Shown one piece after another: positions 4,752-10,123 of a stretch of 63,773 bases of DNA; positions within the stretch are counted from its first letter, which is position 1; each line of letters opens with the position of its first letter. The stretch is from Sulfobacillus sp. (lineage in GTDB: Bacteria; Bacillota; Sulfobacillia; Sulfobacillales; Sulfobacillaceae): NCBI GenBank assembly GCA_027309085.1, contig DAIDDL010000002.1:111063-174835 (forward strand). Direction: 5' to 3'. Position numbers and translations under genes: made by a program. The notes beneath the pieces are model-generated. The model was not told where the DNA came from. It saw only the letters and a list, made by a program, of their open reading frames with translations, and did not search any database.

Positions 4752-5666
4752 ATGAAACCATGGCACGCCTTAGCCCCAGCTGCGCTGGCGGTGGCTTTTT
4801 TACTGCCAGGAGCGCCAGCACTGGCTGTTCATGCCCCAGTCTCTCCGCAATCAGGATCTCGCTATGGGGCAAACCGTCAAGTGTACGCCTCTGCTCTGTC
4901 TCCATCCACAGTGAATTTGGGAGTCAAGGCATTTGCCACTGCAACCAAAGGCCCGACAATTACTGTGACCATCAATGGCGTGGCACAGCAGTTAGCATTG
5001 CCGGCTAATCTCAGTGAAAACACGACGTATACTATCCAGCTGTTCACCATCGTCAACGGCCAACCCGTCATATTGCCCCCGGTGTCGTTTTACGTGAATA
5101 CGTCAGGGACTGTTGTAAATACGCCAGCACCGACGCCGACCCCGACGCCTACTCCCGCACCGCCTCACACTGAGTCAGCTGCTCTCAGGCTTGAGAATGC
5201 GTTGCACGGCTTGCAAATTGAACATGTCAGCCTGCTGTTCGCCTACCTGGAATCCATTCAGCTCACCCCGGCGCAGATCGGGCAAATTGACTCCAATGCG
5301 GCAGCAATTCCCGGGTTGTTCGGCAACATCACCAATCCCAATCAATTGTCCCTTGGGCAAAAAGAACAAGCGGTGAACTTGTTTGTAAGCAGTGCTAATG
5401 AGGCCGATCTGCAAGTTGTGCCGGTACTGGCAGATAGTCAACCAGTAAATCTTGTGACCTACGTCGCAACCCCGAAGAATCCTCTGGAAATTGATCTGGA
5501 GAATGAAAGCGGTAGCGTTCTCGCCGTCATACAGCCCGAGTATTACGATGTCGCTACCCCAGAGCTCGAGGCGTTCATCAATAACGTGGCAATAGCAGCC
5601 AGCGCAGCCTATCAGCTGGAGCACAGCGGGCAGTTCGTGGAGATACCGCACGGCCAGCTTCCATGA
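4752..5666 (+). CDS. Secreted protein with Pro-Thr linker
   Basis: 304 residues with an N-terminal signal peptide (MKPWHALAPAAL, hydrophobic core, ALA-V cleavage site near residue 26). An N-terminal beta-rich domain runs to about residue 122. A PTPTPTPTPAPP linker follows at about 125-138, then an alpha-helical acidic C-terminal domain with no recognised motif. There is no LPxTG signal or C-terminal anchor. The start is well supported by AGGAGGAG six bases upstream. It is the first gene of a plus-strand group with the sortase-fold protein (5778) and the lipoprotein (6568). I infer an extracellular or wall-linked role; the function is unknown. Confidence 0.75.
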   Translation: MKPWHALAPAALAVAFLLPGAPALAVHAPVSPQSGSRYGANRQVYASALSPSTVNLGVKAFATATKGPTITVTINGVAQQLALPANLSENTTYTIQLFTIVNGQPVILPPVSFYVNTSGTVVNTPAPTPTPTPTPAPPHTESAALRLENALHGLQIEHVSLLFAYLESIQLTPAQIGQIDSNAAAIPGLFGNITNPNQLSLGQKEQAVNLFVSSANEADLQVVPVLADSQPVNLVTYVATPKNPLEIDLENESGSVLAVIQPEYYDVATPELEAFINNVAIAASAAYQLEHSGQFVEIPHGQLP

Positions 5667-5777
5667 GGTTGGCTTGTTTGTTTTCCCGTCTGGCCTGTGC
5701 GGGAGAGCTTCACAGAGCAGCGTCCCAGAGGTGTCCGCATAATCCGGCTCACGGGACCCGCTGGTGAGGGAGAGATT

Positions 5778-6398
5778 ATGCGGAAGCTGACCCGGATACT
5801 GCTATGGATTGTGGCGGGCATCCCCGCCCTATTGGCCGTGGCAGGGATAACGGCCACGGCAGTATTCGGGTGGAATACGGTCAAGCAGACGGTCTTGCTT
5901 GCTGATACCCTTATCTTCCCTTACAGACCGGCTCACCTGCAGTACCGGAAGGTTCCGGGGTTCTGGCCCACGCTTCCCGAGCCCGGCACGGCATTGGGAA
6001 CGCTTGTGATTCCCGCAGTACACATCACGGCGCCCACTGTGCAGGGCACCACCTTGGCTCTGCTGAAAAAGTCCGTTGGCCACTATGCTGCGAGCCCGCT
6101 GCCTGGCCAGGCTGGCAATGTCGTATTTAGCGCCTTGGGCAACATCACGTTTCGTAATCTCGACCATGTTAAGCCAGGAGAACGCGTTATTTTCCATTCC
6201 CGTTACGGGTCCTTTGTGTACCGGGTGGTAAGGACAAGCATCGTGCCGCAAACTGATCCCAACATCATTGTGCCGACACAAGCTTCCCAGCTTACGCTGA
6301 CTAGCGGCTACCCTTTCGTATCTCACGACCTCTCCCCCACGGAGCAATTTATCGTGTGGGCTACACCGGTTTCTGAGCCGCCGCATTCTGGCACTTGA
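5778..6398 (+). CDS. Sortase-fold protein lacking the catalytic triad
   Basis: 206 residues with an N-terminal membrane helix (about 7-30) followed by a sortase-like domain. The order of recognisable landmarks fits class D/E sortases: GTLVIPAV at 74-81, SVGHYAASPLPGQAGN at 99-114, then the two active-site strands. The catalytic His of the usual S-G-H-R segment is replaced (SALGN, Leu120). The catalytic Cys of the TLTTC segment is replaced (TLTSGYPF, Gly177). The catalytic Arg is Gln190 (TEQFIVW). Transpeptidation is therefore not expected. Since the frame is intact, a non-enzymatic binding or scaffold role for its exported neighbours is plausible. The ATG at 5778 follows GAGGGAGAG; the longer frame from 5697 is less likely. 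Confidence 0.75.
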   Translation: MRKLTRILLWIVAGIPALLAVAGITATAVFGWNTVKQTVLLADTLIFPYRPAHLQYRKVPGFWPTLPEPGTALGTLVIPAVHITAPTVQGTTLALLKKSVGHYAASPLPGQAGNVVFSALGNITFRNLDHVKPGERVIFHSRYGSFVYRVVRTSIVPQTDPNIIVPTQASQLTLTSGYPFVSHDLSPTEQFIVWATPVSEPPHSGT

Positions 6399-6567
6399 AC
6401 GATTACTGCTGCGGTGTAGGAATCAGCTGAATCTGAGGTTGCGCTTCACATAATGACGCTTTTAGCTGTCACCTTGCTGCCGGGTCTCTCACGGCAGGAG
6501 AGCGTAAAACAATCGCTGAAGCACGGGAATGATGCCCATTAATTAATTGCACCCCGAGGAGGTCTTT

Positions 6568-7113
6568 ATGAACACTTATACGCGGCTGCTCAGTCTGGTC
6601 CCCCTCATCGTTCTGGCAAGCGCATGCGGCGCCCACACTGCGTCTGCTCCATCCCATCACAGGGCTTCCCCTTCTGTGGCAGCCACACACGCCCATTCCC
6701 GGTACTCAGCCAGCCGCAACAATCATAAGCCCACAGTTGCGAAGTCCACGGCGCCAAACAGCGCCGGATCAAATACTGGCGCGGCTCATTCCACTAAACC
6801 CGTCTCGTTGCCGGTGATCTCAAAGCCGTCTACCGCCCAGGGTTCCGCAGCCCAGAACACTGCACTAGTCATCGCGCCTCCCAGTTCTGCGCCGGCGGGA
6901 GCACCTTCCGCCATGACGGTGAGTTTCGATCAGAATTCCCATTTGGTGCAGTCCGCCAACATCACTGCAGAGAGTTTCAATATCGGTGCGGATACGGTGT
7001 CGTTCACTCCGCCAAGGGGCCTGCGGGCAGGCACTTATACGGTGATAGTGCTTTTCGAGTATGGGAACGGCAAGTTCTTTGCCTCGGCACCCAAAAGCTA
7101 CGTGAACAAATAG
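6568..7113 (+). CDS. Lipoprotein sharing a C-terminal domain with the 2.6 kb secreted protein
   Basis: 181 residues. The N-terminus is a lipoprotein signal (MNTYTRLL, hydrophobic stretch, LASAC with the lipid-accepting Cys at residue 20). A Ser/Ala/His-rich low-complexity segment follows to about residue 105, probably spanning the wall. The last 67 residues match the C-terminal domain of the secreted protein at 2566-3522 (SFDQN, PP-L-AGTYTV-VLFE, F-AS, K/T-Y). The start at 6568 has a perfect GAGGAGGT seven bases upstream. It probably belongs to the same expression group as the sortase-fold gene, with a 169-base gap. The domain function is unknown. Confidence 0.75.
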   Translation: MNTYTRLLSLVPLIVLASACGAHTASAPSHHRASPSVAATHAHSRYSASRNNHKPTVAKSTAPNSAGSNTGAAHSTKPVSLPVISKPSTAQGSAAQNTALVIAPPSSAPAGAPSAMTVSFDQNSHLVQSANITAESFNIGADTVSFTPPRGLRAGTYTVIVLFEYGNGKFFASAPKSYVNK

Positions 7114-7585: not shown

Positions 7586-7819
7586 GTGAACGTGTCGTGG
7601 TCGGATTTTGCGCTGCGCGATCTCAAGCAGTTCTCTGAGCTTGAAGCCAGAGCTCTTAAAGTACAGGTTGAAGATGTTTTGAAGGTTTTTCCCTTTGAAG
7701 AAGGAGAGACCATACACATCCCCTATGACAACGATTATATCGTCATCTGCCACCGCTATGCCTCCCCTGCGGTTATCTCTGTCCTCCGCATCCAGTACAG
7801 CGAGGACGGCATGCGCTAG
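7586..7819 (+). CDS. RelE/ParE-like small protein
   Basis: 77 residues starting with GTG; AAAGGA lies about ten bases upstream. The pattern VSWSDFALRDLKQF at the start, a central helix and a C-terminal strand ending in a conserved-looking SVLRIQY segment resemble the compact fold of RelE/ParE toxins, though the match is weak and no catalytic set can be fixed. If it is a toxin, the downstream 85-residue acidic proteins are the only candidate partners; they lie 178 bases away and are not overlapping, which is unlike a normal toxin-antitoxin pair. Function is therefore unproven. Confidence 0.5.
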   Translation: MNVSWSDFALRDLKQFSELEARALKVQVEDVLKVFPFEEGETIHIPYDNDYIVICHRYASPAVISVLRIQYSEDGMR

Positions 7820-7946
7820 CGGCTGATAAGAAGCCCGGAAAGCATCGACTCGCTGCCAGGGCCCATTTGGCCGTTTGACCAGAGGTGACTGGCACAAGCA
7901 GGTTTCGCACGTAAATTCCCAAGGCGGCTGGGTCATATTGTATAGG

Positions 7947-7973
7947 ATCCCTGTCATGGTTACCTGCTAGGAT
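7947..7973 (+). promoter_or_regulatory. Dyad leader element, copy 1
   Basis: ATCCCTGTCA (7947-7956) faces TGCTAGGAT (7965-7973) across a short spacer, an imperfect inverted repeat 24 bases before the gene. It could be an operator or a leader hairpin. It is the most diverged of the four copies. Confidence 0.45.
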
Positions 7974-7996
7974 TATGGAGGAACGGGAGGACAAAC

Positions 7997-8254
7997 ATGA
8001 TCATACTCACTGAAGATTCTGCGGAGGAAATGGCTATGCTGGCAGAGTACTGGATCGCCGATTTAAAGGCGGCCGGATACGATGAGGAGGCTCTTGGACA
8101 GATTTCCAGCATACTGACGCAATGCGCGGCACAAAGCTGGCAACACTGCCATGACGATGAACATAGCGAAATCCTTCAGCAGTTTGTCGACTGGGCTCGG
8201 CAACGAGGGGTCGTGCTTCCGTGGCTCGAAACAGGCAATCCACAAGCGAACTAA
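7997..8254 (+). CDS. Acidic 85-residue protein, cassette copy 1
   Basis: 85 residues, predicted mostly helical, with no membrane segment or signal. It shares with its four paralogues the N-terminal (T/D)(E/D)DS motif followed by an EM pair, a Trp-(I/L)-(A/T)-Asp-Leu helix near residue 20, the Ser-Ser/Ile-Leu helix, a VDW(A/T)RQ segment and a C-terminal LPWLE. It differs from copies 2-4 by its CHDDEH segment and DWARQRG, which resemble copy 5. GGGAGGA precedes the ATG by a good distance. I do not recognise the family. It follows the RelE-like gene and could be a partner, but this is inference. Confidence 0.75.
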   Translation: MIILTEDSAEEMAMLAEYWIADLKAAGYDEEALGQISSILTQCAAQSWQHCHDDEHSEILQQFVDWARQRGVVLPWLETGNPQAN

Positions 8255-8293
8255 TCGGGGACCACCCAAGTTAGCAGCCCCGGTTTGTCGCTT

Positions 8294-8328
8294 AGAAAGA
8301 CCCATGGCGGTTTGGGGGGACTTTAGAG
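8294..8328 (+). repeat. 35-base trailing element, copy 1
   Basis: Begins AGAAAGACCCATGGCGG and ends GGACTTTAGAG. The same sequence recurs at 8787 and 9274, each time 40-70 bases after a cassette gene. It has no obvious hairpin of its own. It may mark the recombination unit. Confidence 0.6.
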
Positions 8329-8428
8329 ACTCCCGTCCACCACACAGATATCCCGGCAAGGCCAGGGGGAGCACGGGGACAAGCTCTCTCCCACAAATTA
8401 CCAAGGCAGGCGGACTACTTTGTATAGG

Positions 8429-8455
8429 ATCCCTGTCACGGCTACCTGATAGGAT
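8429..8455 (+). promoter_or_regulatory. Dyad leader element, copy 2
   Basis: ATCCCTGTCA (8429-8438), spacer CGGCTACC, then TGATAGGAT (8447-8455). The two arms are near-complementary. A TTTGTATAG stretch just upstream could act as part of a -10 region. Confidence 0.5.
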
Positions 8456-8478
8456 AAGGGAAAAACAGGAGGAGAAAC

Positions 8479-8736
8479 ATGACAATCATCACGGACGATT
8501 CTTCAGTAGAAATGGGTATGGTGGTGGACCGCTGGCTCACCGATTTGAGAGCCGAGGGATTCAGTGACGACGCTCTGCGGCAGGCTTCCAGTTCTCTGGG
8601 GCAGTGGGCTGCCACCAACTGGCAGCAGAGTGAGGAAGCGGGACAGGACGAGATCCTGCGGCAGTATGTCGACTGGACTCGGCAACAGGAGCTTGTGCTT
8701 CCGTGGCTGGAAACAGACAGTCCACAGCCAAACTAG
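8479..8736 (+). CDS. Acidic 85-residue protein, cassette copy 2
   Basis: 85 residues beginning MTIITDDSSVEMGM, then a WLTDL helix, SSLGQWAATNWQ, VDWTRQQE and LPWLE near the C-terminus. It is almost identical to copies 3 and 4 (single substitutions such as Ser/Gly in GFSDD). AGGAGGAG sits seven bases before the ATG. The high identity at both DNA and protein level says the duplication is recent or maintained by gene conversion. No family recognised; soluble and acidic. Confidence 0.75.
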   Translation: MTIITDDSSVEMGMVVDRWLTDLRAEGFSDDALRQASSSLGQWAATNWQQSEEAGQDEILRQYVDWTRQQELVLPWLETDSPQPN

Positions 8737-8786
8737 TGCAGTAATTCTTGGCCCAGCTCCGGCTTAGCGGGCGGGATGAGGCCTTG

Positions 8787-8821
8787 AGAAAGACCCATGG
8801 CGGTTTGGGGGGACTTTAGAG
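8787..8821 (+). repeat. 35-base trailing element, copy 2
   Basis: Same sequence as the elements at 8294 and 9274, lying downstream of cassette copy 2. Confidence 0.6.
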
Positions 8822-8917
8822 CCGCCCTCCACGCGAATATCCCCGGCAAGACCAGGGGGAGCACGAGGACAAGCTCTATCCACAAATTACCAAGTCCAAC
8901 AGGCTACTTTGTATAGG

Positions 8918-8944
8918 TTCCCTGTCACGGCTACCTGATAGGAT
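8918..8944 (+). promoter_or_regulatory. Dyad leader element, copy 3
   Basis: TTCCCTGTCA (8918-8927) and TGATAGGAT (8936-8944). One base in the left arm differs from copies 1, 2 and 4; the spacer CGGCTACC is unchanged. Confidence 0.5.
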
Positions 8945-8967
8945 TAGGACAAAACAGGAGGATAAAC

Positions 8968-9225
8968 ATGACAATCATCACGGATGATTCTTCAGTAGAA
9001 ATGGGTATGGTGGTGGACCGGTGGCTCACCGACTTGCGAGCTGCGGGATTCGGTGACGACGCTCTGCGTCAGGCTTCCAGTTCTCTGGGGCAGTGGGCTG
9101 CCACCAACTGGCAGCCCAGTGAGGAAGCGGGACAGGACGAGATCCTGCGGCAGTTTGTCGACTGGACTCGGCAACAGGAGCTTGTGCTTCCGTGGCTGGA
9201 AACAGACAGTCCACAGCCGAACTAG
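8968..9225 (+). CDS. Acidic 85-residue protein, cassette copy 3
   Basis: 85 residues, nearly identical to copies 2 and 4. Visible differences from copy 2 are Ala for Glu in the RAxGF turn, a Pro for Gln in the NWQxSEE segment and Phe for Tyr before VDWTRQ. AGGAGGAT precedes the ATG by six bases. Function unknown; see the array entry for context. Confidence 0.75.
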   Translation: MTIITDDSSVEMGMVVDRWLTDLRAAGFGDDALRQASSSLGQWAATNWQPSEEAGQDEILRQFVDWTRQQELVLPWLETDSPQPN

Positions 9226-9273
9226 GCTGCAGTAATTCTTGAGTTCCGACTTTGCGGGCGGGATGGGGCCTTA

Positions 9274-9308
9274 AGAAAGACCCATGGCGGTTTGGGGGGA
9301 CTTTAGAG
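9274..9308 (+). repeat. 35-base trailing element, copy 3
   Basis: Third exact copy of the trailing element, downstream of cassette copy 3. No copy follows cassettes 4 and 5. Confidence 0.6.
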
Positions 9309-9367
9309 CCCCCCTCCACCAACCTCTATCCGCAAATTGCCAAGGCCAACAGGCCATTTAGAATAGA

Positions 9368-9394
9368 ATCCCTGTCACGGCTACCTGATAGGAT
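9368..9394 (+). promoter_or_regulatory. Dyad leader element, copy 4
   Basis: ATCCCTGTCA (9368-9377), spacer CGGCTACC, TGATAGGAT (9386-9394). The upstream TTTGTATAG of copies 2-3 has changed to TTAGAATAG here. No such element precedes copy 5. Confidence 0.5.
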
Positions 9395-9417
9395 TAGGAA
9401 AAAACAGGAGGATAAAT

Positions 9418-9675
9418 ATGACAATCATCACGGACGATTCTTCAGTAGAAATGGGTATGGTGGTGGACCGGTGGCTCACCGACTTGAGAGCCGAGGGATT
9501 CGGTGACGACGCTCTGCGGCACGCTTCCAGTTCTCTGGGGCAGTGGGCTGCCACTAACTGGCAGCAGAGCGAGGAAGCGGGCCAAAACGAGATCGTGCGG
9601 CATTTCGTCGACTGGACTCGGCAACAGGAGCTTGTGCTTCCGTGGCTCGAGACAGGCGATCCACAGGCGAACTAG
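9418..9675 (+). CDS. Acidic 85-residue protein, cassette copy 4
   Basis: 85 residues, near-identical to copies 2 and 3 through most of the length but with a few changes clustered around residues 58-66 (QNEIVRHF instead of QDEILRQ). Its last residues (ETGDPQAN) resemble copy 1, suggesting some gene conversion between copies. AGGAGGAT precedes the ATG. Function unknown. Confidence 0.75.
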   Translation: MTIITDDSSVEMGMVVDRWLTDLRAEGFGDDALRHASSSLGQWAATNWQQSEEAGQNEIVRHFVDWTRQQELVLPWLETGDPQAN

Positions 9676-9865
9676 GCTGAGCCCAACAGTGGGCACATCT
9701 TTGTCCCGATTCTATTTCTCGAAGCCAGCACTCCAAAGGCTCATGGCAAGCCTTAGCTGAATTTGACTTGGTAGCGGGAAACGTTGGCCCGCCTGACTCT
9801 GGGAATGATTGGCACAAACTGAACCACAAATTCTCAATATTTTCGAAACGAACAGAAGGGGAAAC

Positions 9866-10123
9866 ATGATTATAATCACTGACGATTCTTCCAGCGAAAT
9901 GGGTATCCTGGTAGACCATTGGCTCGCTGATTTGAAGGCCTCTGGATTCGACGAGGACGCCCTTCGCAAGGTCTCCAGTATACTGGGCCAGTGGGCTTCG
10001 ACAGGCTGGCAATACTGCCAGGACGATGGACATGGCGAGACCTTCCAGCACTTTATCGACTGGGCTAGGCAAAGGGGCATGGTGCTCCAATGGCTCGAAC
10101 CCAACACCACAAACTCGAACTAG
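9866..10123 (+). CDS. Acidic 85-residue protein, cassette copy 5
   Basis: 85 residues from the ATG at 9866; the open frame reaches to 9809, but AGAAGGGG lies six to seven bases before 9866 and the length then equals the other copies. Sequence: IIITDDSSSEMGIL, WLADLKASGF, SSILGQW, CQDDGH, DWARQRG. It is clearly closer to copy 1 than to copies 2-4 in the central and DWARQRG segments. Its leader lacks the dyad element, so it may be regulated differently or read from upstream. Function unknown. Confidence 0.7.
   Translation: MIIITDDSSSEMGILVDHWLADLKASGFDEDALRKVSSILGQWASTGWQYCQDDGHGETFQHFIDWARQRGMVLQWLEPNTTNSN

Follow-up and report, generated by a model that had tools for sequence, protein, structure and literature searches.

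The genomic stretch analyzed here, 63,773 nucleotides from Sulfobacillus sp. (hereafter, the window), contains a tandem array of five genes for small acidic proteins of 85 residues. These proteins represent a real yet unnamed family that is so far confined to the order of the window, that is, Sulfobacillus and its relatives. Four of the five genes are preceded by a palindromic element, the form and position of which suggest a promoter; as far as the libraries and the literature searched show, both the family and the element are undescribed. Tentatively, and with somewhat less than even confidence, we interpret the array as a set of free-standing, co-regulated cassettes that would produce a protein-binding helical protein, the dose of which would be raised by the tandem copies.

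The five open reading frames occupy positions 7997-10123 of the window, each consists of exactly 85 codons, and all are located on the + strand. The encoded proteins are acidic, with pI values of 4.05-4.39 and net charges of -8 to -12, in agreement with the initial annotation, which described five tandem genes for an acidic 85-residue protein. Successive copies are spaced, start to start, by 482, 489, 450 and 448 nt, and these five are the only family members encoded in the genome (4.49 Mb, from the Sulfobacillus group; the window belongs to contig C95). The features of the locus are as follows:

7586-7819, + strand: gene for a RelE/ParE-like small protein of 77 aa with a GTG start, at the head of the array (from the ORF, the S. 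thermotolerans neighbor and the predicted fold)
7942-7973, + strand: candidate promoter element of copy 1, dyad ATAGGATCCCTGT, 10 nt, TGCTAGGAT (pattern search and upstream inspection)
7997-8254, + strand: 85-aa protein, copy 1, outer and diverged (ORF and sequence comparison)
8296-8328, + strand: 33-nt block, first occurrence, left end of the amplified unit (identical after copies 1-3)
8424-8455, + strand: candidate promoter element of copy 2 (pattern search and upstream inspection)
8479-8736, + strand: 85-aa protein, copy 2, inner (ORF and sequence comparison)
8789-8821, + strand: 33-nt block, second occurrence (sequence identity)
8913-8944, + strand: candidate promoter element of copy 3 (pattern search and upstream inspection)
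8968-9225, + strand: 85-aa protein, copy 3, inner (ORF and sequence comparison)
9276-9308, + strand: 33-nt block, third occurrence (sequence identity)
9363-9394, + strand: candidate promoter element of copy 4 (pattern search and upstream inspection)
9418-9675, + strand: 85-aa protein, copy 4, inner (ORF and sequence comparison)
9866-10123, + strand: 85-aa protein, copy 5, outer, with no promoter element upstream (ORF and sequence comparison)

We have high confidence in this anatomy. The repeated leaders and trailers that had been attributed to the array as a whole are found in part of it: the conserved leader precedes copies 1-4 but is missing before copy 5, and the trailer, a 33-nt block that follows copies 1, 2 and 3 without any difference, is missing after copies 4 and 5, so that the claim of repeated trailers holds for three of the five copies. 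Within 3 mismatches, the block was not found elsewhere in the genome. The three blocks show no differences, in contrast to an overall identity of 89% for the non-coding DNA of two units, and the block might be a functional site or the product of recent conversion. When the block and the leader were considered as RNA structures, their stability was not clearly above that of shuffled sequences; scans of the window detected no Rfam match and no tRNA.

Copies 2-4 share 91-95% DNA identity with one another, whereas copies 1 and 5 are only 68-73% identical to the others and to each other, which bears out the earlier description of near-identical inner and diverged outer copies. Because the copies differ in 5-32% of the bases, it seems unlikely that the array is a false duplication introduced by the assembler. 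The amplified unit starts at the 33-nt block that follows the stop codon (8296, 8789 and 9276) and extends past the end of the next gene. In the protein tree, all five copies group in a single clade (support 96/98) that is separate from both copies of Sulfobacillus thermotolerans, and copies 2-4 form a younger clade within it (97/100). This topology indicates that the array arose in the lineage of the window and grew in several rounds, as expected under the repeated local amplification proposed in the initial annotation.

Every pair of copies shows an excess of silent over replacement changes, with dN/dS values of 0.16-0.40 across all pairs and of 0.16-0.26 among copies 2-4, for which the silent excess is significant (Fisher p 7e-4 to 4e-3). 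These values indicate that the copies are maintained as proteins under purifying selection and have not been driven apart in the manner of an antigen-type array. The outer and inner copies do differ at about half of the residues, as could be expected of a diversifying set of antigens, immunity proteins or inhibitors, each with its own target, and the array had indeed been likened to antigen- or inhibitor-type arrays. However, dN/dS does not exceed 0.40 in any pair, no within-array pair shows an excess of replacement changes, the inner copies are near-identical, and neither a signal peptide nor any other export signal is visible, so that this explanation appears extremely unlikely. Distinctly unlikely, too, is the possibility that the array is a by-product of recombination, with tandem duplicates tolerated without benefit. 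The presence of the array in only one genome and the absence of parts of the repeated flanks from copies 4 and 5 are compatible with such an origin, but all five reading frames are intact, silent changes predominate even among the youngest copies, and four copies retain the promoter element. Dosage selection would fit the combination of near-identical proteins and purifying selection. Elsewhere in the family, a second locus in genome G005 (L020, on contig C41) contains two in-frame stops inside the matched stretch, which implies that some family copies decay.

The statement that the protein family is not recognized stands for the libraries that were searched: no model in Pfam, NCBIfam or PHROGs scored above the cut-off with the 85-residue protein. 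We searched for family members among 61 relatives at the protein level and, with a profile, in 154 genomes of the class; the profile detected them in 18 genomes, all within the family or the order of the window, with one to five copies per positive genome. No second tandem array was seen among the family-bearing genomes, in which the copies are scattered, and no relatives were found in the phage, plasmid and viral collections. A match in Methylobacter (L025) in the scan of genome contigs was dismissed as a chance hit inside a long unrelated frame. The starts of distant members were chosen by the ribosome-binding site, and several of the distant loci lie at contig ends or are possibly broken. 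Among named relatives, the closest one in which this locus is present is S. thermotolerans Kr1 (CP019454), which encodes two 85-aa copies (hereafter t1 and t2).

Family members share the pattern [ML]-G-x-x-[VI]-D-x-[WY]-[LI]-x-x-L-R, followed by A-x-x-L-G-x-x-A-x-x-W and then by F-x-x-W. A structural model of the 85-aa protein (pLDDT 75; built, as were the other models, from a shallow alignment of sequences from the window and the S. thermotolerans locus L024 only, seven sequences in this case) includes helices at positions 9-26, 30-46, 48-53 and 57-69, and the conserved tryptophans and leucines lie in the predicted compact, acidic helical bundle. A sequence search of solved structures with the family yielded no credible match, and comparison of the model with PDB folds using Foldseek and VIA retrieved only weak similarities to common helical arrangements. 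Among these, the N-terminal core-binding domain of tyrosine recombinases (5vfz and 2kiw) has a similar arrangement of helices, with VIA Z scores of 6.2 and 5.1, but such scores are common for helical models, and the profile-profile probability for the integrase core-binding domain is 28.5% over 20 columns, that is, a single helix. No DNA-binding or catalytic signature was found in the 85-residue protein, and DNA binding seems unlikely because these proteins are strongly acidic.

A suggestive sequence similarity is that to DUF3243 (PF11588; structure 3d0w), a family that includes Bacillus subtilis YflH and YmfJ. Like the 85-residue proteins, DUF3243 proteins are small and helical, and a G-x-S motif followed by A-x-x-[LI]-G-x-x-[LA] is common to both. 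DUF3243 was the only family matched by two members, in both cases weakly (E 0.0056 and 0.094), and the profile-profile comparison gave a probability of 69.6% (P 4e-5, 43 columns); none of 100 column shuffles exceeded 4.4%, and the small acid-soluble spore proteins (SASP), an unrelated family, reached 0.3%. Because 24736 families had been scanned before DUF3243 was singled out, we regard this link as a lead rather than as evidence of membership. The 85-residue proteins could conceivably be a divergent branch of the YflH/YmfJ group with a role in or around sporulation. The sporulation context has some appeal inasmuch as the SigF regulon has been listed as including ymfJ (PMC12536801) and Sulfobacillus forms spores (PMC8489842, for S. 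harzensis). Nevertheless, the best member scores 17.4 bits against the Pfam cut-off of 27 bits, so that no 85-residue protein is above it, and the array copies do not match the DUF3243 model at all; the P-E-Q-R-L-L-K-E-[LM]-W block of DUF3243 is missing from the 85-residue family; and 3d0w is absent from the listed fold matches of the 85-aa model, which by itself does not imply exclusion. Furthermore, the promoter element differs from those of spore-protein genes in the same genomes, and the genome that carries the array also encodes a separate, true DUF3243 protein away from it (L091, contig C93, 25776-25988). On balance, a distant relationship with DUF3243 is suggestive only, and membership with a sporulation-related role is unlikely.

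The small gene at the head of the array invites comparison with RelE/ParE toxin-antitoxin loci. This gene (7586-7819, 77 codons) is present as the initial annotation stated, but lies just outside the interval annotated as the array, and no Pfam or NCBIfam model matches its product, nor did a sequence search of the PDB yield a match. The product is 74-76% identical to that of the gene preceding t1 in S. thermotolerans. Its predicted fold is of the form H-H-E-E-E (pLDDT 67), with RelE (2khe; E 0.1, non-significant) as the top Foldseek match and with RelE, YoeB and HigB2 among the top structural matches, none of them significant. If the 85-residue proteins were antitoxins of this putative toxin, their multiplication could serve to restrain it. 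Indeed, in two species, the window's and S. thermotolerans, the RelE-like gene, with its RelE/ParE-like predicted fold, stands immediately upstream of a gene for a small acidic protein, and copy 1 shows a weak MazE-like match (E 0.043), which, however, is under the cut-off; no known antitoxin domain was detected above the cut-off in the 85-residue protein with Pfam or NCBIfam. The stable linkage expected of a RelE-type pair was not observed either. The two genes are adjacent only in the window and in S. thermotolerans; genomes G002 and G003 encode a RelE-like protein (63-64% identity) at a locus distant from that of the 85-residue protein and with no obvious partner; and in G001 and G005, the 85-residue gene is present but no RelE-like gene was found. 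Moreover, unlike in RelE/ParE loci, one gene of the two is multiplied here, and the 85-residue gene has a separate promoter element of its own that sits between the two genes. Thus, the two genes are neighbors in two species, not a fixed pair, and a functional partnership finds no support in this distribution; the RelE-like gene is probably independent of the array, and the antitoxin interpretation is highly unlikely.

The upstream element consists of the palindrome AYAGGAWTCCTGT, exactly 10 nt, and then TGNTANNNT, and is located 19-36 nt ahead of the start codon. Alignment of the leaders of the window copies and both S. thermotolerans copies revealed a conserved segment located 30-33 nt upstream of the start codon; with no more than 1 mismatch, this segment does not occur elsewhere in the eight genomes of the genus. 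The element was identified upstream of 18 of the 24 family genes examined, across several genera, in some cases with several mismatches; among the weaker instances, 13 of 18 positions match in G038 and 14 of 18 in G002 and G003. It is missing from copy 5 of the array, from the G001 and G005 genes and from the second genes of G038 and G003, and the G009 gene was counted as lacking it given that the site is too distant and the start is uncertain. The consensus was defined from copies 1-4 of the array, t1 and t2, the G003 and G002 genes and two G017 genes, and the element was then seen upstream of genes that had not contributed to the definition, namely, those of G023, G032, G012 and G038, three of G031 and the third of G017. 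The p-values obtained by shuffling are optimistic for the genes that served as the source of the consensus; the confirmatory genes and the following test of the gap are free of this fault. When the gap was allowed to vary between 8 and 13 nt, 6 sites were detected in 34 genomes, all with a gap of 10, compared with 0 for the reversed-pattern control. The strict pattern occurs at 14 sites, against 1 for the control, and in the genome of the window is confined to the array. Of these 14 sites, seven lie upstream of family genes (four in the window), and the rest precede unrelated genes or none; because about half of the strict sites thus lie outside the family, the element is not exclusive to it. 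In genomes of the same family, the element was found before genes for a 420-aa coiled-coil protein, a 60-aa zinc-ribbon-like protein and a CpaF-like protein (L163, L164 and L173; about position 1501).

By its form and position, the element resembles a promoter: TGNTANNNT reads as an extended -10 box, and the palindrome is centered some 32 bases upstream of the expected transcription start, that is, at the -35 position, where a canonical -35 box is absent. Such a promoter would make each of copies 1-4 a transcription unit of its own. This arrangement is compatible with an extended -10 promoter under the control of a dimeric regulator, or else with an unusual sigma factor; in the latter case, the element would be a promoter and not an operator, and the sequence GGAATC is found 17 nt upstream of the -10 hexamer. 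Two specific sigma factor assignments were considered and rejected. The boxes and spacing do not fit a SigF/SigG sporulation promoter, as judged from 16 upstream regions of SASP genes, which were compared both visually and by pattern; AGGAWT could be read as a sigma-H box, but the accompanying -10 is not that of a sigma-H promoter. A literature search for the palindrome returned matches in unrelated fields only.

The position of the array can be traced in S. thermotolerans, where a lone 85-residue gene lies between a lipoprotein gene and a DUF218 gene, the site that the array occupies in the window. The surface-protein locus beside the array (4752-7113, encoding a 304-aa secreted protein, a sortase and a lipoprotein) is also kept in S. 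thermotolerans (L024, 8789-13398). There, a 2OG-Fe(II) oxygenase gene that is not found in the window (L024, 11938-12807) lies between the sortase and lipoprotein genes, and the lipoprotein and a nearby secreted protein have a similar C-terminal SFDQN...GTYTV module. Directly after an S. thermotolerans 85-aa copy, there is a gene for an Xre-type regulator (L024, 8386-8715), relatives of which are encoded in all eight genomes of the genus, in other places. This protein is a possible candidate for the reader of the palindrome.

Taken together, these observations lead us back to the interpretation of the array as a set of co-regulated cassettes. Under this scenario, copies 1-4 would be separate cassettes, each with its own candidate promoter, and the palindrome would be bound by a regulator acting as a dimer, which would either take the place of the contacts at the -35 position or prevent them, such that four of the five cassettes would respond together to one signal. 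Copy 5, which lacks the element, might be read through from copy 4 or be otherwise expressed. The 85-residue product would be a helical protein that acts as an adaptor or inhibitor by binding a partner protein in a fixed proportion, and the tandem copies would raise its amount. The regulator, the partner and the dose effect are proposed on the strength of the palindrome, the lack of a catalytic or DNA-binding signature, the acidic charge and the pattern of selection.

It is known that the dose of a small gene can be raised by amplifying it in tandem. More generally, we suggest, again as a tentative proposal that falls somewhat short of even confidence, that the order of Sulfobacillus possesses an undescribed regulon in which one palindrome-binding regulator would control dispersed copies of this unnamed family of small acidic proteins through a fixed arrangement of the palindrome, 10 nt and the extended -10 box; individual lineages would tune the response by multiplying whole cassettes, which are scattered in some genera and arranged in tandem here. 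Unlike the protein sequence, the element predicts which genes would respond together and provides a DNA bait for the regulator, and it is short enough for direct testing. Sulfobacillus organisms are used in bioleaching, and the copy number of such accessory genes may matter for stress tolerance in this setting.
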